Origin: Gemmatimonadaceae bacterium
GTDB lineage: Bacteria > Gemmatimonadota > Gemmatimonadetes > Gemmatimonadales > Gemmatimonadaceae
Assembly (NCBI GenBank): GCA_020852815.1
Contig: JADZAN010000017.1
Location: 1 to 61,396, forward strand
DNA: 61,396 nucleotides
Reading direction: 5' to 3'
The notes beneath the pieces are model-generated. The model saw only the letters and a list, made by a program, of their open reading frames with translations. It had not been told where the DNA came from and did not search any database. The translations under genes were made by a program, and so were the position numbers. Below, one piece after another: positions 1,134-10,911 of this stretch (position 1 is the stretch's first letter; each line of letters begins with the position of its first letter).

Positions 1134-2656
1134 TCACATTTCAACTGAGGCAGGACAGCTCCCCTCCACCGCACCCACGAACGCCCGCGAAAACCCGCCA
1201 GCCGCCACGTAGTACAACGGCGAGCGCCTCTCCAACGCCGCGTGCGCCCACGCGCGCCCAGCGTCCGCCGCACGCGTCAACATCTCCATGTGCTGGTGAT
1301 GCACCCGGGCGCCGATAGGCGTACGATCCCACTTCACCGCGCCAGTCATCACGCCGCCGCCTACCAACGGCGCGACGACGTCGATCTCCAATGACTGACG
1401 CGCACGATCGACCCCCTCCCAGTGCGTCCAGCGCTCCACCAGCGGCAACGCCGGCTTCCGCGTCGTGCCACTGGCGCGATCGTATGCCTGCGCGGCCATG
1501 CGCTCGAACGCCAGCCCCATGAAGGTGTCCAGGTGCGGTGCGATGGCGTCCTCCCACACGACTCGGCAGGATAGCGCGCCAGTGCCGACACGTTAGGCAC
1601 CACGAAGCGGTGGTAGAAGCGGATGGCGGGATCGGCCACGACGTAACGCGTCGCATCGTTGGCCCTGGCATCCACATTCGCACGCGCCTCGAGATAACCC
1701 AGCTCGACGAGGGTGGACAGCTTCTCGCGCAGGGCATGGTCGTTGGCCAGCCCCACGCGCTGCGCGATCTCGTTGCGCTCGGTGCATCCGTTGGCCACGG
1801 CACCGAGGATGGCGCGGTACTTGTTCGCGTCGCGAAGCCCCTCCTCCTGATCGAGCGCCGTCTCCAGCAATGCACGCACCTCGCCGCGTGGCGAGAGAAC
1901 GAGTTCGATGACGTTCTCTGACAGCGTGCGCGACGGGTCAACGGCGGCGAGGTAGCGCGGAGTCCCCCCGAAAATCGCGTACGACTGCGCACGATCGCGC
2001 AGCGCACGGAAGCTGGCGAGTTGCGCGGCATCCCAGTAGATGAACGGCGCCAGTCGATGTCGCCAGGCGAAACGTCCGTACAGCGGCGCTCCTCCCGCGT
2101 CGAGCGCCTCCATGGTGGTGACCTCCGATCCGGCGAGCATCAGGAGCACGGGACTCGTCGAGGGGCCGCTACGCTGCTCCAGCACCGCGTTGAGTTCCGA
2201 TGCAACCTCGGCGAGACCGCCACTCCCTTCCGCCAGATACTGGAACTCGTCGAGTACCACGACGCGCCCAGCGGACGCTTTGCCCAAACTCGCACGAGCG
2301 GGCGACAGGAGGAGCTGGAAGATGGTGCGCCAGGTGGGATAGTCGTCCGGAACGAGCGTTGCGCCAGTCCACGCGGCGAAGTCCTGGACAAGCTGCCGCC
2401 TGTTGAGCTCCGGCGTGGTGCGCGAGGCGGTGAAGAGGAAGAGCCGCTCCTGCGGCCACGCGTGGGTGAGGAGAAAGGTCTTCCCCACACGACGACGTCC
2501 CGTGAGGAGCGCAGCGATCGGGCGCCCACGGTCCTCGGCCTGCTTCAGTAGCCGGGAGAGCTCCGAGCGCTCCTCCTCCCTGTCCACCAGCAAGTCGGTC
2601 TGCGCAACGTAGCGCGAAGCGCCTTCGCGAATCCTGCGCGCGGTACGAGCGGCCAT
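1134..2656 (-). pseudogene. ATPase_2/DUF234-type ATPase, frameshifted and 3'-truncated by IS
   Basis: A cytosolic P-loop ATPase of the archaeal-type ATP-binding family. The first ~365 codons read cleanly: Walker A GRRRVGKT, Walker B VVVLDEFQY, then a winged-helix segment. Near 1562-1565 the frame is lost; one missing base would join RYPAES to VWEDAIAPHLDTFMG, which continues in another frame with a DUF234 nuclease-like domain (EIDVVAP then AVKW, a PD-(D/E)xK-like spacing). The end (GFSRAFVGAVEG...) resembles the usual C-terminus, but the stop codon (1134-1136) lies inside the IS terminus. The start at 2656 is preferred because upstream sequence is filled by the palindromes at 2660-2691. Nuclease role is inference; a sequencing error at the shift cannot be excluded. 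Confidence 0.75.
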
Positions 2657-2659
2657 GCC

Positions 2660-2691
2660 TGCAACTATAGTTGCATGCAACTACGGTTGCA
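2660..2691. promoter_or_regulatory. Two abutting 16-bp palindromes, likely operator of the ATPase gene
   Basis: TGCAACTATAGTTGCA (2660-2675) is a perfect palindrome and is followed with no spacer by TGCAACTACGGTTGCA (2676-2691), identical except for the central two bases. They fill almost all of the 41 bp between the oxidoreductase stop and the ATPase start at 2656. The perfect symmetry and position just upstream of a start codon suggest an operator for two dimers. The regulator is not identifiable here. Confidence 0.65.
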
Positions 2692-2697
2692 AGCACC

Positions 2698-3714
2698 TCA
2701 CCCACACCCTTGCTCCACCCCCGCCACCACCCTCATCACCTCCACCGCCTCACTCGGCGGCACCGGGTTCCCACCAATCCCCCTCACCGCATCCCGCACC
2801 CCCTCGTAGAACGCCCGCCAATCTCCCCGCTCCGATTCCACCACCCGCTCCACGCGCCGCTCCCCTTCGTACGACGTGAGCACCCCCGGCTGCCGATCCA
2901 CCCCCCACTCCGCACCGCCAACCACGCCACCGCCGCGCAGCACCTCCTCCTGCGGATCGGTCCCAAACTTCACATAGCTCCCACGCGTCCCGTGCACGAC
3001 AAACCGCAGGTCGTTCGCCGCCGCGAGCATCGACGCGTGCAACACGACGCGCAGGCGCTCGTACCGCAGCACGACGTGGAAATAGTCGTCCACCTGCGCC
3101 CCGTCGCGCTGGATGACCAGGTCGCCCTCCACACCGAGCGGCTGGCCGAACAGCTGCAACGCCTGGTCCACGAGGTGCGGCCCCAGGTCGTACCACAAAC
3201 CCGCCCCCGCGCCGGCGCGCTCGCGCCAGCGGTCACGCACCACGGGGCGATAACGATCGATGCGCGACTCGAAGTAGCGCACATCGCCTAACGCGCCGTC
3301 GCCGATCAGCTTTCGCACGGTCACGAACTCGCTGTCCCACCGCCGGTTGTGAAACACAGCGAGCACGCGCCCCGCACGCTCGGCGTGCGCCACGACCGAC
3401 TCGGCCTCCTCGACGGTCACGGTGAACGGCTTGTCGACCACGAGGTGCTTGCCGGCGCTCAAAGCGGCGTGCGCCTGCCGGGCGTGAACGGCGTTGGGCG
3501 TGGCGAGGACAACCAGATCGATGTGGGGATCGGTGAGCGCCTCGTCGTAGTCTCCGACCACCCGGGCGTCTGGGTGCGCACCGCGGGCAAGCGCCCCCTG
3601 GCTGGAGACAATGGTGTGCAAGCGAAGCCCTTCGACCGCCGCGACGAGCGGCGCGTGAAAGCTGCGGCCGGCGAAGCCAAAGCCGACAAGGGCGACGTTG
3701 ATCGTTTCGTTCAT
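2698..3714 (-). CDS. Gfo/Idh/MocA-family NAD(P)-dependent oxidoreductase
   Basis: 338 residues, the normal length for this family. The N-terminal Rossmann fold shows VALVGFGFAGRSFHAP at residues 6-21 and the family signature DKPFTVTVEEAE with the conserved Lys-Pro of the active site; the C-terminal half is the alpha/beta oxidoreductase domain (WYDLGPHLVDQALQLFG contains the usual catalytic-region His). The start at 3714 places the nucleotide-binding strand at the expected distance; an in-frame ATG 48 bp upstream adds an unlikely tail. Substrate is probably a sugar, inositol or related polyol, but cannot be specified. It is cytosolic and transcribed divergently from the CHAT protease gene. Confidence 0.85.
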   Translation of the reverse strand: MNETINVALVGFGFAGRSFHAPLVAAVEGLRLHTIVSSQGALARGAHPDARVVGDYDEALTDPHIDLVVLATPNAVHARQAHAALSAGKHLVVDKPFTVTVEEAESVVAHAERAGRVLAVFHNRRWDSEFVTVRKLIGDGALGDVRYFESRIDRYRPVVRDRWRERAGAGAGLWYDLGPHLVDQALQLFGQPLGVEGDLVIQRDGAQVDDYFHVVLRYERLRVVLHASMLAAANDLRFVVHGTRGSYVKFGTDPQEEVLRGGGVVGGAEWGVDRQPGVLTSYEGERRVERVVESERGDWRAFYEGVRDAVRGIGGNPVPPSEAVEVMRVVAGVEQGCG

Positions 3715-3907: not shown

Positions 3908-6900
3908 ATGGGCACTTCGGTGGGCGAGGACGGCTTCGCGCGCTACTCCGCGCGCGTGGACAAGCTCCAGCAAGACCTCGTCGCCGCCAAGCGCGACGGC
4001 GACATCGTCAACGAGATCGACACGCTGCTGGCGATCGGTGATGCCGCGCTGGAGCGCGACCCCGCCCTGGCGATGATGCACTACCGCCTGGCCGAGCGCC
4101 AATGTCGCGGCGAGGGCCCCCGCCTGCACGCGGCGATCGGCGGGCAGGGGCGCGTGCTGCGGCGCGGAAAGCAGCTCCCCGAAGCAATCGAGCACTTCCA
4201 GCGGGCCGTGGCAGCCGCCGAACGCGCCGGTAATCGCGTGGCGCAGGTACTCTGGATGGTGCGACGCGCCGCTGCGCTCCGCGCCGGGGGTGACGCCGAG
4301 GCGGGAGGGGCGCTGGCGCGTAAGGCGGAGGCGCTGCTGCGCTCTCCCTCATCAACCAATGGCCGGCGAGCGCGACTCGGCGCGGTGAACCTGTTCGACG
4401 CCGAGCAGGTCACGACGCTCGTGGAACTCGAGGGGGAACTCGGGCGCGATTGCGCCGCACGTGGCGACGAGGACGGCGCGGAGGATCACTATCGCAGCGC
4501 GTGGAGCCACGCGCAGTCGATGCAGCAATGGGATGCGGTCGACACCTGGGCGCGCAACACAGGGAATGCCTGCGCGCGCCGGCAGCGCTTCGGCGACGCA
4601 CTTGCCTGCTACGAAGCGGCGCTCGCCGCAGCGCGCCAGCTCGACGGCGACGACCATGTGACCGCGACGTTGCGCGCGCTGGCCAGCGCGTATCATGGAG
4701 CCGCGCGCTTCGAGGAGGGTGGGGCGCGGCTGGAGGCGCTGGCTGGCGAGCTGTCGGGGACGGCCCAGCTCACGGCGCTGGACGAGTCGCTGTCGCTCTA
4801 TGATCAGGGGCTGGCGGCAATCGATGGGATCCGCGTCGCCGACCGCATCGCCGAGTTGGGGAAGGGGAGGCCGTTCGCCGAACAGTTCGCGCGCCGGGTG
4901 CGGGAAACGCGCGCGAAGCTCGCTCGCCTTGGCACCATGCCGCCCAACACCGACGGTCCGTGTGCGCTCGATCTCTGGTTGCCGCACGTGATGGCGCGTG
5001 CGGTGGATGCGCGCGATGCCGATGGGGCGCTGGTGGCGGCGCACCTGGTGTGCGACGTGCGCCTGGCGCTCGCGCTGCGCGGTGGGCGGGAGTGGGCGCG
5101 CATGATTGGTGGTGACGTGTTGCAGCAGGCGGGGCTCGACCTGCGCGTGGTGAGCGACACGCTTGCCCTGCTGGTGGAGATGGACCGCAACGATGCGGCG
5201 AGCGACCTGCTACAGCGTTGGAAGGCGCCGGCCTTCTGCACGGCGACGCTGCACCGGTTGTTGGAGGCTCCCCCGGCGCACCCGGAGTTGGGTGCGGTGG
5301 CCGATGCGGCGCGCGCGCTGGCCCAGTCGGTCGACGCGATGGCCGGCGTGGCGCAGCCCGACTTCATCCGCGCCGTCAATGGCGTGCGGCGCTCGGCGTT
5401 GCAGCTGCGGGAGGCGGGCGAGCGCATCCGCGCGCGCGACCCGCTCCTGCACGCGCGCCTGGGATTTGGCGTGTATCCGCGCGACCTGGTCGACGCCCTC
5501 CCCATCGACGGCGGCGTGGCGATCGTCGACTTCCTGGTGGGGCGCGACGCGACCGACGGGGTGATCTACACGCGCGGTGCCGACGGCGTCGTGACCACGC
5601 TCCTGCATGCCCCCACCTTCACCGCCCGTGAGGCGCGCGCGCTCACCGAGTTGCAGCAGGCGGGCAACCTCTCCAACGCCCTTGGCGGGGCGCAGACCGA
5701 GGCGTTGCTCGACATCGCGAAGATCCTGCACGACCACTTCTTCTGCTTCCTCGCCCGCTCGCTCTCCGAGCGCGGCGTCACGCAGCTCATCCTCGTCCCC
5801 GACGTGCTCACGCGCGCCATTCCCTTGCATCTGGCGATGGTGTGCGGGAAGGAGGTCGCGATAACGGGGATCGACACGTCGGATGCCAACTTCCTGTGCG
5901 AAGTGATGCCGGTCGAGTACGCCCCCGCGGTGCAGGCGGTGGCCGCGTCGCAGGCGTTCGTGCGCCCGCGCGCCATTGGCGCCGTGGCTGGGTTTGCCGA
6001 TCCCAATGGCGACCTGGCAGGAGTACGCGCCGAGCTGGAGGCGTTTGGCGCACGGGCAACCGCCGGCGGCCACGCGGCGCGATGGTCGCTGGCGACGGGT
6101 GCCGAGATGACGCGCGAGGCGGTGAGCGAGGCCATCCGCACCGCCGACCTCGTTGTGCTGGGGACGCATGGGCACTTCGTGGCCGGCGACCTGCGCGCCT
6201 CGCACCTGGTGATGCACGACGCGCCGTGGTCGCTGGACGAGATGTTGCGCCTGCCGGCACTGGAGAAGCGCGCGCTCCTGGTCCTCATTGCCTGCGAAGC
6301 GGGCGCGGTGGCGCTCACGCCGGACGACGCGCTGTCGTGGGGCATTCCCGGGGCGCTGGTGAACGCAGGCGCGAGCGCTGTGCTGGCCAATCTCTGGCCG
6401 GTGGTCGACGTCACGGCGAACATCCTCCTCGACCGCTTCCTGGTGCACCTGGCGCACCGCGGATTTCGCCCGTCAGCTGCACTGTTCCGCGCTGTGCGCG
6501 ACCTGCGGCGCATGACGCACGACGAGGCGGTGGCCGCCTGCCGCCTGCACTACGATCGCCTCAAGGCGCACAAGGCGGCGCCCGAGGCGCTGGTGGGGGC
6601 GCGCACGCTGATGGACTGGGTCGATGACAGCGACTCGCCGACGCCGTTCGCGCACCCCTTCTTCTGGGGAGCGACGGCCATCTTCGGAAGCGGCTGGCAC
6701 CTCCCGGCAGGCGCCTGCGTCGGCGCCATGGACCGCGTGGTCGACAACGAGATGCGCCTGCGCTCGGCGGTGGAGGCGATGCGCTCTGGCAGGATGCGCG
6801 ACGCGCTGGACGACGCGACGGCGCTGGCGCAGCGTTCGGATGGCGTCACGCGCGCCCGCGCCTACGTCCTCATGGCCGACAGCATGCTGCAGGGGGCCGA

Positions 6901-7057
6901 CCTCACCGCGCACGCGCGCGTGTCGCGTCGCGCCGGGCGGCTCCTTGCGGCTGCCGGACGCATGGCGCGCGCCGAGGAGGACGACGAACTGTTGGAGTGG
7001 ATCAACACCCTGCAACGCTCCCTGGAGAGTGACGATGTGGAACCGTACGAGCGCTGA
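3908..7057 (+). CDS. TPR-CHAT caspase-like protease, partner of gasdermin
   Basis: A 1049-residue cytosolic protein. Residues ~20-450 are alpha-helical TPR-like repeats (for example GRVLRRGKQLPEAIEHFQRA and RRQRFGDALACYEAALAAA). Residues ~500-930 form a CHAT peptidase domain: catalytic His754 in VVLGTHGHF and Cys796 in LVLIACEAG, then PGALVNAGASAVLANLWPV and HPFFWGATAIFGSGW, all typical CHAT landmarks. About 110 helical residues follow. The ATG at 3908 is chosen over longer in-frame starts because GGAGG sits 5 bp upstream. Its last 23 bp overlap the gasdermin gene, so the two are translated together. By family precedent the TPR region senses a signal and the CHAT domain cleaves the partner; the signal is unknown. 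Confidence 0.88.
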   Translation: MGTSVGEDGFARYSARVDKLQQDLVAAKRDGDIVNEIDTLLAIGDAALERDPALAMMHYRLAERQCRGEGPRLHAAIGGQGRVLRRGKQLPEAIEHFQRAVAAAERAGNRVAQVLWMVRRAAALRAGGDAEAGGALARKAEALLRSPSSTNGRRARLGAVNLFDAEQVTTLVELEGELGRDCAARGDEDGAEDHYRSAWSHAQSMQQWDAVDTWARNTGNACARRQRFGDALACYEAALAAARQLDGDDHVTATLRALASAYHGAARFEEGGARLEALAGELSGTAQLTALDESLSLYDQGLAAIDGIRVADRIAELGKGRPFAEQFARRVRETRAKLARLGTMPPNTDGPCALDLWLPHVMARAVDARDADGALVAAHLVCDVRLALALRGGREWARMIGGDVLQQAGLDLRVVSDTLALLVEMDRNDAASDLLQRWKAPAFCTATLHRLLEAPPAHPELGAVADAARALAQSVDAMAGVAQPDFIRAVNGVRRSALQLREAGERIRARDPLLHARLGFGVYPRDLVDALPIDGGVAIVDFLVGRDATDGVIYTRGADGVVTTLLHAPTFTAREARALTELQQAGNLSNALGGAQTEALLDIAKILHDHFFCFLARSLSERGVTQLILVPDVLTRAIPLHLAMVCGKEVAITGIDTSDANFLCEVMPVEYAPAVQAVAASQAFVRPRAIGAVAGFADPNGDLAGVRAELEAFGARATAGGHAARWSLATGAEMTREAVSEAIRTADLVVLGTHGHFVAGDLRASHLVMHDAPWSLDEMLRLPALEKRALLVLIACEAGAVALTPDDALSWGIPGALVNAGASAVLANLWPVVDVTANILLDRFLVHLAHRGFRPSAALFRAVRDLRRMTHDEAVAACRLHYDRLKAHKAAPEALVGARTLMDWVDDSDSPTPFAHPFFWGATAIFGSGWHLPAGACVGAMDRVVDNEMRLRSAVEAMRSGRMRDALDDATALAQRSDGVTRARAYVLMADSMLQGADLTAHARVSRRAGRLLAAAGRMARAEEDDELLEWINTLQRSLESDDVEPYER

Positions 7058-7847
7058 CCCGCTGGCCCGCCTCCTCTTCGACAAGTACGACGTGCACGTG
7101 CTGAGCCGACCGCGTGCGGCGCTTCCCGTGCTCACCGTCTTTGCCGTGCGCGATGACAAGGTCTACCTGGGCGGAGCGCTGACGTCGCTGCTGCGCGTTC
7201 CCTTCGATCCGCCGGACATCACGAAGGGGGAACCGGTGCTCGACATCTCGACCACCGTCTCGAGCGCCACGTCGGGGAGTGGGGCGCTCAACTTCCTGAA
7301 GGGATTCCTGGCCACGATTGGGGGAGCGATCGGCGTCTCGATGGGGGCGGCCTTCGAGCGCACCGGGACGTCGGTACTCAAGTTCCGCTTCGACGGCTGC
7401 ACGCTCGACTCGGTGACCGATGCCTTTGACCTCGAGAACCGGCTGGCCGACCTCGACTTCGACCGCGCGAAGTCGGCGATGCGCGACGATGCGCGGTACT
7501 ACATCGCGCGCGGTGTGCATTCGTGCGCGTCGTTGACCTTCGAGGCGCTCGACAAGAAGTCAGCGAGCATCGACCTGCATGCCGACGTCGCCGCGATTGG
7601 TGATGCCAAGGGGGCGCTCTCGGTCAACAAGGACAAGACGATCACCGCGTCGAGCGCTGCGCCGCTGGCGTACGGCGTGGTGCTCAACGAGTTGGTGTAC
7701 GACGGCCGGCGCAAGCGGCTGGGGCTCAAGGAAGCGCGTGACTACGTGCACGTGATGGGGGCGGTGAAGCGGAAGATCGCGGCGGCGGAGGTGGGGGGTG
7801 AGAAGGGTGGGGTGTTGGAGGTGACCGAAGGCGTTTTGTCTGACTAG
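7035..7847 (+). CDS. Bacterial gasdermin-like pore-forming protein
   Basis: 270 residues, no signal peptide or Pfam-style enzyme motif. I recognise it from the overall pattern of bacterial gasdermins: an N-terminal segment (DPLARLLFDKY, VHVLSRPRAALPVLTVFAVRDD, LGGALTSLL), a Gly-rich helix-strand region at 81-107 (ALNFLKGFLATIGGAIG then VSMGAAFE), alternating strands 112-215 (VLKFRFDGCTLDSV, ARYYIARGVHSCASLTFEA, PLAYGVVLNELVY) and a short charged tail from ~225. The pairing with a CHAT protease is the classic bGSDM arrangement. The tail (VKRK at 244-247) is the likely inhibitory part removed by the protease. The first Cys is residue 122, so the usual N-terminal palmitoylation Cys is absent. 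GGAGAG at 7024-7029 supports the start. Assignment is by remembered pattern, not a search. Confidence 0.66.
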   Translation: MWNRTSADPLARLLFDKYDVHVLSRPRAALPVLTVFAVRDDKVYLGGALTSLLRVPFDPPDITKGEPVLDISTTVSSATSGSGALNFLKGFLATIGGAIGVSMGAAFERTGTSVLKFRFDGCTLDSVTDAFDLENRLADLDFDRAKSAMRDDARYYIARGVHSCASLTFEALDKKSASIDLHADVAAIGDAKGALSVNKDKTITASSAAPLAYGVVLNELVYDGRRKRLGLKEARDYVHVMGAVKRKIAAAEVGGEKGGVLEVTEGVLSD

Positions 7848-7860
7848 TCTGACCAGACTA
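7838..7860. promoter_or_regulatory. Toxin-antitoxin operator overlapping the gasdermin stop codon
   Basis: TAGTCTG (7845-7851) and CAGACTA (7854-7860) are perfect inverted arms around AC, and GTCTGAC occurs as a direct repeat at 7838-7844 and 7847-7853. The gasdermin stop TAG is the first three bases of the left arm. The antitoxin ATG is 10 bp downstream, so an autorepressing antitoxin bound here would cover its own promoter region or ribosome binding site. Confidence 0.55.
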
Positions 7861-7870
7861 CATTGAAGTC

Positions 7871-8158
7871 ATGGCAGACGAGTGCTCTCTTTACGACGCG
7901 AAAGCGAAGCTCTCGGCACTTGTTCGTCAGGTGCGGGAGGGACGGACGATCGTCATCACCGTTCATGGTGAACCGGCGGCGGAGCTTCGCCCCATCGAGC
8001 GAGGTGCGCGGAAGCAGTCACTCGCGGAGCGAGTGGAGGAACTGGAGTCCCGTGGAGAGCTGTCCGCGCCGACGCGCAGGTCCGGGGCGTCGGTCGCGTT
8101 GCGGCGGTTGGCTCGCCGCCCTGGGGCGCTGAAGCGCTTCCTCAAGGAACGCGAGTGA
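7871..8158 (+). CDS. Phd/YefM-type antitoxin
   Basis: 95 residues. The N-terminus (YDAKAKLSALVRQVREGRTIVITVHGEPAAELRPI) is the Phd/YefM DNA-binding fold: helix, helix, then the VxVHGxPxAxLxP strands. The C-terminal half is polar and basic, the usual disordered toxin-neutralising tail. It would dimerise on the inverted repeat just upstream and cap the PIN toxin. Its TGA overlaps the GTG of the toxin gene by 4 bp (GTGA), the normal coupled layout. The antitoxin looks intact although its toxin does not. Confidence 0.82.
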   Translation: MADECSLYDAKAKLSALVRQVREGRTIVITVHGEPAAELRPIERGARKQSLAERVEELESRGELSAPTRRSGASVALRRLARRPGALKRFLKERE

Positions 8159-8535
8159 AGGTCGCCATCGTCGACAGCTCGTGAATTGTCGCCGTCGCGC
8201 TCGATGAGCGGACGGGTCACGCCGTCCGAGCGCGTCTCGTCGAGTTCGACAGGATCTTCGCGTCGCCGCTCCTCGAAGCGGAGTTGAGAGCTGCGTTGCG
8301 CCGCGAAGCACTCCCGGACGCGGAGCTCGACCTCTCGGACATTCAGTGGATTCTGCCGTCGCGTGCGTTGACTGACGAAGTGGAGCGCGTGCTGGACGCG
8401 GGCTGCGTGCGCGGCGCCGATTGCTGGCACCTCGCCTGCGCGCTCTACCTCGCCCAGGATTCCGGCGAGGTGACGTTCCTCACGCTGGACCTTCCGCAGC
8501 GAAAGGTCGCGAAAGCGCTCGGGTTCGCGACGTAG
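8155..8535 (+). pseudogene. PIN-domain toxin gene with nonsense codon at position 10
   Basis: The frame starts GTG in a 4-bp overlap with the antitoxin and reads VKVAIVDSS, then TGA at 8182-8184, then IVAVALDERTGHAVRARLVEFD and on to ADCWHLACALYLAQDSGEVTFLTLD, ending TAG at 8533. This is a whole PIN toxin (126 codons) broken only by the TGA. PIN toxins commonly have DSSCIVA at this point, so one change in a Cys codon would give the stop. The first catalytic Asp (residue 7) lies before the stop and the Glu and C-terminal Asp lie after it. No good internal start preserves the active site, so the toxin is probably silent. Confidence 0.78.
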
Positions 8536-8601
8536 GCGACGCCCGCGGGCGCCGGCACTTCTCCCCCTTCCTCCCCCCTCCCCCGACCCGCCGAGCCAAC
8601 G

Positions 8602-9366
8602 ATGGGCAGCGCACTCCCGCCGATCCCGAAGGGAACCGGCCAGCATCCGATCGCGATGATCACCATCGCCGCCAACGACTTCGCGGCGTCGACGGCGTTC
8701 TATCACGCCGTCTTCGGGTGGCAGTTGATGACGATCACCGCCGACATCGCAGCGACCGCGCTCGCCTCCGGGCCGGCGGTCACGCTGCGCGCAAAGACAC
8801 CCGATGGCTTCCAGGGGGTTGTCCCCTTCATCGCCGTAGCCGACGTGCCGGCGGCGTTGCAGCAGGTGGTTGCGGCTGGCGGCGCGGTCGAGCGCGCACC
8901 GTGGGCGATGCCGATGGCGGGAACGCTCGCCCGCTTCACCGACCCCGCGGGGACTGTGTACGGACTGGCCAGCGCGCCGAGCCCGGCACCGCCGCACATT
9001 CCCGCCCCCTTCGGCGACGCGCGCCGTCCGCCTAACGGGACGGTCTGCACGCTGGAGATGCACGCCGGTGACCTGGACGTCGCCGCGCGATTCTTCGGCG
9101 CGCAGTTCGGCTGGGGTACGCTCCCCACCATGCCGCAGTACCTGATGTTCGACGCCGGCGCCGGCATCGGCGGTGTCTTCCAGTCGCACACGCCGGCCAC
9201 CCGTGGGCTCGCCTATCTCTACGCCGCCGACGTGACGGCGACGCTCGCCGCAATCGAGGCGGCGGGAGGGAAGCGCATGGGCGAACCGATGGCCATTCCC
9301 GGCATGGCGACCTTCGGCTACTTCACCGATCCCTCCGGGACGGCGATGGGGTTGATTGGGGGGTAG
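8602..9366 (+). CDS. VOC-superfamily protein with two glyoxalase-like domains
   Basis: 254 residues containing two VOC repeats: ~15-125 (MITIAANDFAASTAFYHAVFGWQ to ARFTDPAGTVYGL) and ~140-252 (TVCTLEMHAGDLDVAARFFGAQFGW to YFTDPSGTAMGLI). Each begins with the conserved xxxDxxAAxxFY turn and ends in FTDPxGxxxGL. Similar two-domain proteins include glyoxalase/bleomycin-resistance and CFP-30/hydroxylase-like proteins; the metal ligands are not clear enough to name a substrate. It is cytosolic and sits between two toxin-antitoxin pairs, with no sign of co-transcription with them. Confidence 0.8.
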   Translation: MGSALPPIPKGTGQHPIAMITIAANDFAASTAFYHAVFGWQLMTITADIAATALASGPAVTLRAKTPDGFQGVVPFIAVADVPAALQQVVAAGGAVERAPWAMPMAGTLARFTDPAGTVYGLASAPSPAPPHIPAPFGDARRPPNGTVCTLEMHAGDLDVAARFFGAQFGWGTLPTMPQYLMFDAGAGIGGVFQSHTPATRGLAYLYAADVTATLAAIEAAGGKRMGEPMAIPGMATFGYFTDPSGTAMGLIGG

Positions 9367-9392
9367 GTCAACCGCCCCCGCCCTGTGCGATG

Positions 9393-9418
9393 GCAAGCAA
9401 GCTTGCTACCTTGCTTGC
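9393..9418. promoter_or_regulatory. Inverted-repeat operator abutting the antitoxin start codon
   Basis: GCAAGCAAG (9393-9401) and CTTGCTTGC (9410-9418) are perfect 9-bp arms around an 8-bp spacer, and the 12-bp palindrome AGCAAGCTTGCT (9396-9407) is nested in the left half. The right arm touches the ATG at 9419. Binding of the antitoxin would block ribosome access and transcription, fitting autoregulation. Confidence 0.65.
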
Positions 9419-9727
9419 ATGAAGGCCACCATCGACCTCGACGAAGCGTTGTATCGCCGCCTCAAGATCGAGGCGGCGCGGCGTGGGCGGACGGTGCGGG
9501 AGTTGGTCGCCGAGGGTGTGCGATACATCCTCGACGCCCCGGACGGGAGCGCTGGTCGAGGGGAGGCCGCGTCGACCACCGCGCCGTGGAATCCCGCGTG
9601 GCTGGGTTCCCTGCAGCGCTACGGGAGCGCGATCGAGGACCACTCGATGGACGCAGTCCGCGAGAGCGTGGCGCGCGCGCGGCGACAGCAGCAAGGGCGC
9701 GCACGAGGGAAGGAGCGAAAGTCGTGA
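9419..9727 (+). CDS. Ribbon-helix-helix antitoxin (VapB-like)
   Basis: 102 residues. The N-terminus MKATIDLDEALYRRLKIEA then RRGRTVRELVAEGVRYIL is a ribbon-helix-helix fold: one strand that pairs in the dimer and two helices. The rest is a charged, low-complexity tail expected to wrap the toxin. The ATG at 9419 abuts a strong inverted repeat. The stop overlaps the toxin GTG start by 4 bp. Unlike the neighbouring pair at 7871-8535, both partners here look functional. Confidence 0.85.
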   Translation: MKATIDLDEALYRRLKIEAARRGRTVRELVAEGVRYILDAPDGSAGRGEAASTTAPWNPAWLGSLQRYGSAIEDHSMDAVRESVARARRQQQGRARGKERKS

Positions 9728-10122
9728 CCATCGGATTGGACACGTCGCTCACGCTCCGGTTGCTCACCGGTGTGCCCGAGGCACAGGCCGATGTCGCGCG
9801 CCGGCTGGTCGCGTCGTCACCGTCGCCTGTCGCCATCTCCGACCTCGTGGTCGGGGAGACGTACCTTGCCCTGCGCCATCACTATGGCGTGCCGCATGGC
9901 GAGGCGACGCGCGTCCTGCACGCGCTACTCTCCGATCCGCGCATCAGGGGCACCGGCGTGGCGCGTTCCATTCTCGCCGACCCGGAGTCGCGACGCAGTG
10001 CCAAGTCGCAGCCCGGACTCATGGATCGGCTGATCCATGGCGACTATGATCGAGAGGGACTCGCGGTCGCGACCTTCGATCGTGCGCTCGGGCGACTCCA
10101 GGGCGCACAGCGACTCGGCTGA
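9724..10122 (+). CDS. PIN-domain toxin (VapC-like ribonuclease)
   Basis: 132 residues with a GTG start in a GTGA overlap with the antitoxin. PIN acidic residues are visible: Asp in IGLDTSLTLRLL, Glu in SDLVVGETYLAL, then an Asp pair in LMDRLIHGDYDREG and the final Asp in VATFDRALGRL. Such toxins are Mg-dependent endoribonucleases that usually cut tRNA or rRNA when the antitoxin is degraded. It ends 3 bp before the LOG gene, so read-through into that gene is possible. Confidence 0.85.
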   Translation: MTIGLDTSLTLRLLTGVPEAQADVARRLVASSPSPVAISDLVVGETYLALRHHYGVPHGEATRVLHALLSDPRIRGTGVARSILADPESRRSAKSQPGLMDRLIHGDYDREGLAVATFDRALGRLQGAQRLG

Positions 10123-10125
10123 CCC

Positions 10126-10911
10126 ATGTCTTCCCCACACGACTCCCGCCACATCGACCTCTCCTTCCTCGAGGGACCACGCTCCCGCTGGAAGGAACTC
10201 GGTTCGGTCTTCTCCATTGCCGGCGAGTTCATTCGCGGCTTCCGTGCGCTGCACTTCGTGGGTCCGTGCGTGACCTTCTTCGGCTCGGCGCGCTTCAAGG
10301 AAGACCATCCGTACTACAGCGCCGCACGCGAGCTGGCGCAACGCATCGGACGTGTAGGGTTCACGATCATGACCGGGGGCGGCCCCGGGATCATGGAGGC
10401 GGCCAATCGCGGGGCCCGGGATGTCGGTGCGCTCAGCATCGGCTGCGGGATCGTCCTTCCGCATGAACAAGCGCTCAACCCGTATTGCGACATTGCCCTC
10501 AACTTCAATCGCTTCTTCATCCGCAAGGTCCTCCTCCTCAAGTACAGCATCTGCTTCGTCGTGATGCCGGGCGGCGCGGGGACGCTCGACGAGCTGTTCG
10601 AGACCATCACGCTCATTCAGACGGGGAAGGTGGAGAACTTCCCCATCCTCCTGTACGGCAAGGAGTACTGGGGGCCTACGCTGGCGCAGATCGACCGGAT
10701 GGTGGCCGAGGGGACGCTCAAGCAGAAGGAGCTGTCGTTCGTCTTCGTGGCCGACAGCGTGGAGGAAGCGACGACGCTCCTGCAGGATCGCCTGGTGGCG
10801 ATGTGGCAGGAGCGTCAGAAGGGGCGCGAAGTGCCGCGGTGGTGGTTCCTCGAGGGGCGTCGCCCTACTTCGCAACCATCCGCACCAGCGGGTCAGCCCA
10901 CGAGAATATGA
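10126..10911 (+). CDS. LOG family protein (TIGR00730 Rossmann fold)
   Basis: 261 residues. Both family signatures are present: GGGPGIMEAANRGA and PGGAGTLDELFE. LOG proteins are cytokinin riboside 5'-monophosphate phosphoribohydrolases or nucleotide N-glycosidases; PGGxGTxxE holds the catalytic Glu and the GGGPGIM turn binds phosphate. This longer form, with an N-terminal extension and a conserved VGPCVTFFGSAR strand, is widespread in bacteria and may act in purine-nucleotide salvage rather than hormone synthesis. The last 47 bp overlap tail-to-tail with the large membrane-protein gene on the other strand. Confidence 0.88.
   Translation: MSSPHDSRHIDLSFLEGPRSRWKELGSVFSIAGEFIRGFRALHFVGPCVTFFGSARFKEDHPYYSAARELAQRIGRVGFTIMTGGGPGIMEAANRGARDVGALSIGCGIVLPHEQALNPYCDIALNFNRFFIRKVLLLKYSICFVVMPGGAGTLDELFETITLIQTGKVENFPILLYGKEYWGPTLAQIDRMVAEGTLKQKELSFVFVADSVEEATTLLQDRLVAMWQERQKGREVPRWWFLEGRRPTSQPSAPAGQPTRI

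Follow-up and report, generated by a model that had tools for sequence, protein, structure and literature searches.

The window (the whole stretch of DNA analysed, 61,396 nucleotides) is the entire contig C17 of a 5.38-Mb assembly from a Gemmatimonadaceae-like bacterium (Gemmatimonadota) of soil type. Two genes near its beginning are considered here, both on the forward strand. The first (3908..7057) encodes a caspase-like TPR-CHAT protease of 1,049 aa, with a TPR region at residues ~80-270, a CHAT domain at residues 604-927 and the dyad His754/Cys796; the second (7035..7847) encodes a bacterial gasdermin (bGSDM) of 270 aa, the predicted pore-forming effector, with a core at residues 9-238 and a C-terminal tail at residues 240-270. 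The genes overlap by 23 bp (7035..7057) in different frames, so that the protease gene is adjacent to the gasdermin gene as in two-gene bGSDM-protease systems, and the overlap is consistent with translational coupling of the two genes. Both frames are full length, begin with ATG and are preceded by Shine-Dalgarno-like sites (GGAGG for the TPR-CHAT gene and GGAGAG for the bGSDM gene). The 5.38-Mb genome contains a single bGSDM and two CHAT proteins, one of which is the protein beside the bGSDM; because of these low numbers, and because the bGSDM genes at the loci L006, L007 and L011 (see below) are paired likewise, the adjacency is not a matter of chance.

On the reverse strand at the contig end, a transposase remnant (751-1137) adjoins a frameshifted AAA ATPase gene (1361-2680, the C-terminal part continuing in another frame at 1134-1559). 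The ATPase (1134-2680, reverse strand) matches the PADLOC candidate-defence family PDC-S27 (E = 1.9e-28), and this broken gene was the only defence hallmark that PADLOC found near the pair. Downstream of the bGSDM gene, and in the same accessory segment (see below), are genes for a Phd/YefM-type antitoxin (7871..8158, forward strand) and a VapC-like PIN toxin (8155..8535, forward strand), neither of which is thought to be part of the gasdermin module. The toxin is probably inactive because of an in-frame TGA at codon 10, and its antitoxin is intact. Where the bGSDM gene ends, just ahead of the antitoxin gene, there is a near-perfect palindrome (TAGTCTGACCAGACTA, 7845-7860), which is likely the operator of the antitoxin. 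A second toxin-antitoxin pair (RHH antitoxin and PIN toxin) lies at about 9419-10122, in the interval 9367-10141. The surroundings listed in the sequence-only reading (a mobile element, toxin-antitoxin pairs and a broken ATPase gene) were thus recovered, and the "accessory end" mentioned there is the end of the contig.

Identification of the gasdermin

The PADLOC bGSDM profile PDLC02986 matched residues 7-230 of the 270-aa protein (E = 2.8e-27), and phmmer with this protein alone detected the Vitiosangium bGSDM structures 8sl0 (E = 4.6e-7) and 7n51 (E = 5.7e-7), so that similarity to the bGSDM family is evident in the sequence itself. With the NCBIfam model prok_gasdermin (NF051890; E = 5.3e-20), the score of 72 bits was below the naming cut-off of 100, which marks the protein as divergent. 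A Pfam scan of the protein gave no match, its identity to the relatives found here was 19-25%, and a scan of genome contigs with this gasdermin alone as the query returned no relatives.

The structure was predicted with AlphaFold2 from an alignment of the 270-aa protein and four relatives (bGSDMs only) without templates. The resulting model (pLDDT 69.5, pTM 0.72) was mostly well resolved at residues 9-238, where the gasdermin pore-forming fold (a twisted antiparallel sheet) is predicted. When the model was compared with the PDB by Foldseek, the 27 best rows were all gasdermins, with 7n51 first (E = 3.7e-13). VIA-align gave Z = 18.1 for 7n51 (rmsd 3.4, 230 residues) and Z = 14.9 for 7n50, with lower scores for the animal gasdermins and Z of ~6 for the cholesterol-dependent cytolysins; the matches from the two programs span bacterial, Trichoplax and mammalian gasdermins. 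The 270-aa protein is a gasdermin, and a divergent one. The sequence-only reading, in which a gasdermin of 270 residues overlapping the protease gene by 23 bp was proposed and a fold comparison of this kind was suggested as the check, agrees with the ORF coordinates and with the PADLOC, phmmer, Foldseek and VIA results.

From the start codon at 7035, the N-terminus of the gasdermin reads MWNRTSADPLARLL, with no cysteine near it; the only cysteines are at positions 122 and 164. An N-terminal cysteine, which is palmitoylated, occurs in 'the majority' of bGSDMs and not in all (PMC9612521), and membership of the family does not require it. Since it is missing here, the palmitoyl anchor typical of most bGSDMs should be missing as well. 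This absence, together with the stop codon in the adjacent PIN toxin gene and the frameshift in the ATPase gene, might suggest that the module has decayed and that one or both of its genes are nonfunctional like their broken neighbours. We consider decay very unlikely, as both full-length frames have kept their Shine-Dalgarno-like sites, the catalytic residues of the protease are intact and the gasdermin fold is predicted; moreover, the bGSDMs of L006 and L011 are also devoid of an N-terminal cysteine, so that its absence is a recurring variation and not proof of decay.

As for the C-terminus, the length of the protein and the absence of a C-terminal domain fit a short inhibitory peptide, and residues 240-270 are predicted to be the peptide that is cleaved. 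The pLDDT of these 31 residues is below 50, and the model therefore places neither the inhibitory tail nor the cleavage site.

The TPR-CHAT protease

Residues 604-927 of the 1,049-aa protein matched the Pfam CHAT domain (PF12770, E = 1.5e-31), and a TPR_12 match was also obtained (E = 9.4e-9). His754 is found within GTHGH and Cys796 within IACEAG; the protein thus combines a CHAT domain with the intact His-Cys dyad of a caspase-like protease, just as the sequence-only reading had it, and the dyad, the loss of which would have spoken against that reading, is in place. The full-length AlphaFold2 model from the single sequence had a pLDDT of 44 and was set aside. A family-wide search with the TPR-CHAT protein (177 genomes, E = 1e-15) yielded no relatives. 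Neither TPR-CHAT nor bGSDM was matched among the PLSDB plasmids, and no TPR-CHAT, bGSDM or CHAT was found in the viral contigs scanned. Since no close homologue was found for either protein, the exact pair has been seen once.

The fusion of TPR to CHAT is shared with Craspase (PMC9729208, PMC9935389), the TPR-CHAT protein of which is RNA-guided (PMC9729208), and the present protein could accordingly be a Craspase-like protease that answers a CRISPR effector, with the gasdermin as its substrate. The Craspase TPR-CHAT is, however, bound to Cas7-11 (PMC9729208, PMC9935389), whereas neither Cas7-11/gRAMP, the partner in type III-E, nor any other cas gene was detected among the ten neighbouring proteins scanned, and phmmer of the TPR-CHAT protein against the PDB chains (E up to 1) did not find the Craspase TPR-CHAT. 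From these neighbours and this search of the PDB chains, we regard a Craspase-like role of the pair as extremely improbable.

Accessory segment and distribution

In the same-genus genome G427 (locus L024), the segment 3700..8592, which contains the TPR-CHAT gene, the bGSDM gene and the Phd/PIN pair, is missing. Because the flanking genes, for an oxidoreductase (window 2915-3699) and a glyoxalase (8593-9366), are only 131 bp apart in that genome, the module with the Phd/PIN pair is, by this comparison, a 4.9-kb accessory insert. The RHH/PIN pair is also missing from G427, and the interval from the oxidoreductase gene to the LOG-family gene looks like a small insertion hotspot.

bGSDMs were found in 4 of the 395 genomes of the phylum and in 3 of the 179 genomes of the family, in scattered genera. 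This sporadic distribution favours gain at the site in the present genome over loss in G427, where a loss would look alike, and, with the empty site in a genome of the same genus, it fits a mobile defence gene. The only candidate for a target-site duplication was the 8-bp sequence ACCAGACT, which occurs at both 3857 and 7852 and is short enough to be repeated by chance. The insert is not clearly marked by composition (G+C content: CHAT gene, 71.6%; gasdermin gene, 65.9%; contig, 68.6%).

Proposed mechanism

In published bGSDM systems, the neighbouring caspase-like protease cuts the gasdermin behind a Leu or Arg that lies ~20 residues before the C-terminus, and the freed core forms very large pores; toxicity is lost when the His/Cys pair of the Runella protease (H796, C840) is mutated, and a Lysobacter operon shields E. 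coli from T4, T5 and T6 (PMC9612521, PMC9079055). Since the present pair has the same components and its dyad is similarly spaced, we infer the same mechanism: the pair is very probably a two-gene bGSDM-protease suicide module for abortive infection, in which the TPR-CHAT protease, triggered by infection, would cut the gasdermin to release a lethal pore. The gasdermin would be made in an inactive form, held shut by its C-terminal tail, and the TPR region would keep the protease off or detect a sign of infection. The activated protease would then use Cys796 to cut the gasdermin in the loop before the last ~20-30 residues; the freed core would oligomerise into a large pore in the inner membrane, and the cell would be killed before the phage matures. 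The protease-activated suicide module put forward in the sequence-only reading is, by homology and gene order, the best account of the pair.

What switches on the proteases of bacterial gasdermins is a question that the review PMC9612521 leaves open. Among the neighbours of the pair, no gene of NLR, CARD or lectin-like type was recognised, and there is no separate sensor gene; the TPR region is thus the likeliest site of sensing or restraint. A two-gene system of this type narrows the question, as its trigger would be expected to act directly on the TPR-CHAT protein. More tentatively, the pair could be a minimal system in which the TPR-CHAT protein is both sensor and protease and the divergent gasdermin forms pores without an N-terminal lipid anchor; the odds of both features holding together seem to us rather below even.

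The same cleavage and pore formation might instead serve developmental lysis or interbacterial competition. According to reviews, bGSDMs may have roles in further kinds of conflict, and their action is not necessarily lethal (PMC9612521); besides TPR, no phage-sensing domain was recognisable in the Pfam scan of the protease. On the other hand, the module is rare and accessory, and a genome of the same genus lacks it at this site, which argues for defence over core development, and the Lysobacter system that was tested is anti-phage (PMC9079055). A role other than phage defence is therefore considered unlikely.

Comparison with known systems

The pair resembles the Runella zeae bGSDM and its caspase-like protease (Johnson et al. 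2022), as outlined in PMC9079055 and PMC9612521, in the association of a ~270-aa gasdermin with a large protease, in the spacing of the dyad (H796/C840 in Runella, H754/C796 here) and in the C-terminal autoinhibition predicted here. The gasdermin differs from that of Runella (7n52) in being ~12% identical over the structural alignment and in having no N-terminal cysteine. The closest solved structure is the Vitiosangium sp. bGSDM (7n51, 8sl0, 9a84; best sequence and fold scores as given above), from which the present protein differs at the N-terminus and the C-terminal tail, with ~21% identity. The Lysobacter CARD-NLR operons (Wein et al. 2025, as cited in PMC13236601) also use a protease-activated gasdermin; they are multi-gene operons with an NLR-like ATPase, a CARD and a trypsin-like protease, none of which is beside the present pair. 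The fungal het-Q1/het-Q2-like gasdermin-protease pairs are likewise two-gene clusters, and ~17% of the fungal proteases carry CHAT, with several architectures including TPR or other repeats; these pairs are eukaryotic and have been described in the context of fungal cell death and non-self recognition, not of phage defence (PMC10989679).

The pair had been taken as the likely main novelty of this stretch, which was an overstatement, since pairs of bGSDM and caspase-like or CHAT proteases are already published (PMC9612521, PMC9079055) and the PADLOC bGSDM model finds the protein; the pair adds a new, divergent member to the bGSDM-protease systems and is not a new kind. What is distinctive is its minimal make-up without a separate sensor gene, the cysteine-less gasdermin, which would test how far assembly needs the palmitoyl anchor, and the fact that in Gemmatimonadota a gasdermin module occurs as a mobile accessory insert, of which no report was found in the literature searched.

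Other bGSDM loci

A search of the genome contigs with a three-sequence bGSDM alignment gave four loci, two of which had already been obtained in the whole-genome search. At L006 (same family), the bGSDM gene is directly followed by a gene for a CHAT-AAA protein and then by one for a 1,854-aa P-loop NTPase-like protein, apparently in a multi-gene gasdermin operon (L006:9032-18838) that also encodes a protein of 485 aa without a known family; the CHAT-AAA protein also weakly matches PADLOC SAVED_CHAT, and the NTPase-like protein contains a peptidoglycan-binding domain. At L007 (same family; also at L012), the gene directly after that of the bGSDM encodes a CHAT-SIR2 protein; next come the genes for an nSTAND1 protein that contains a C25-like region and for a further two C25-like members of the caspase family, which makes a series of four candidate proteases next to a single gasdermin (L007:620-9531). 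At L011 (Pyrinomonadaceae), a caspase C14 gene directly follows the bGSDM gene.

Pairing with a protease is not universal, since the bGSDMs of the phylum at L008 and L009 have no adjacent protease gene. These two bGSDM genes adjoin genes for Amidase_2, a cell-wall amidase (L008:9684-11818 and L009:5655-7374), an arrangement suggestive of a holin-endolysin-like pairing; Amidase_2 has been noted near some bGSDM operons in a review (PMC9612521).
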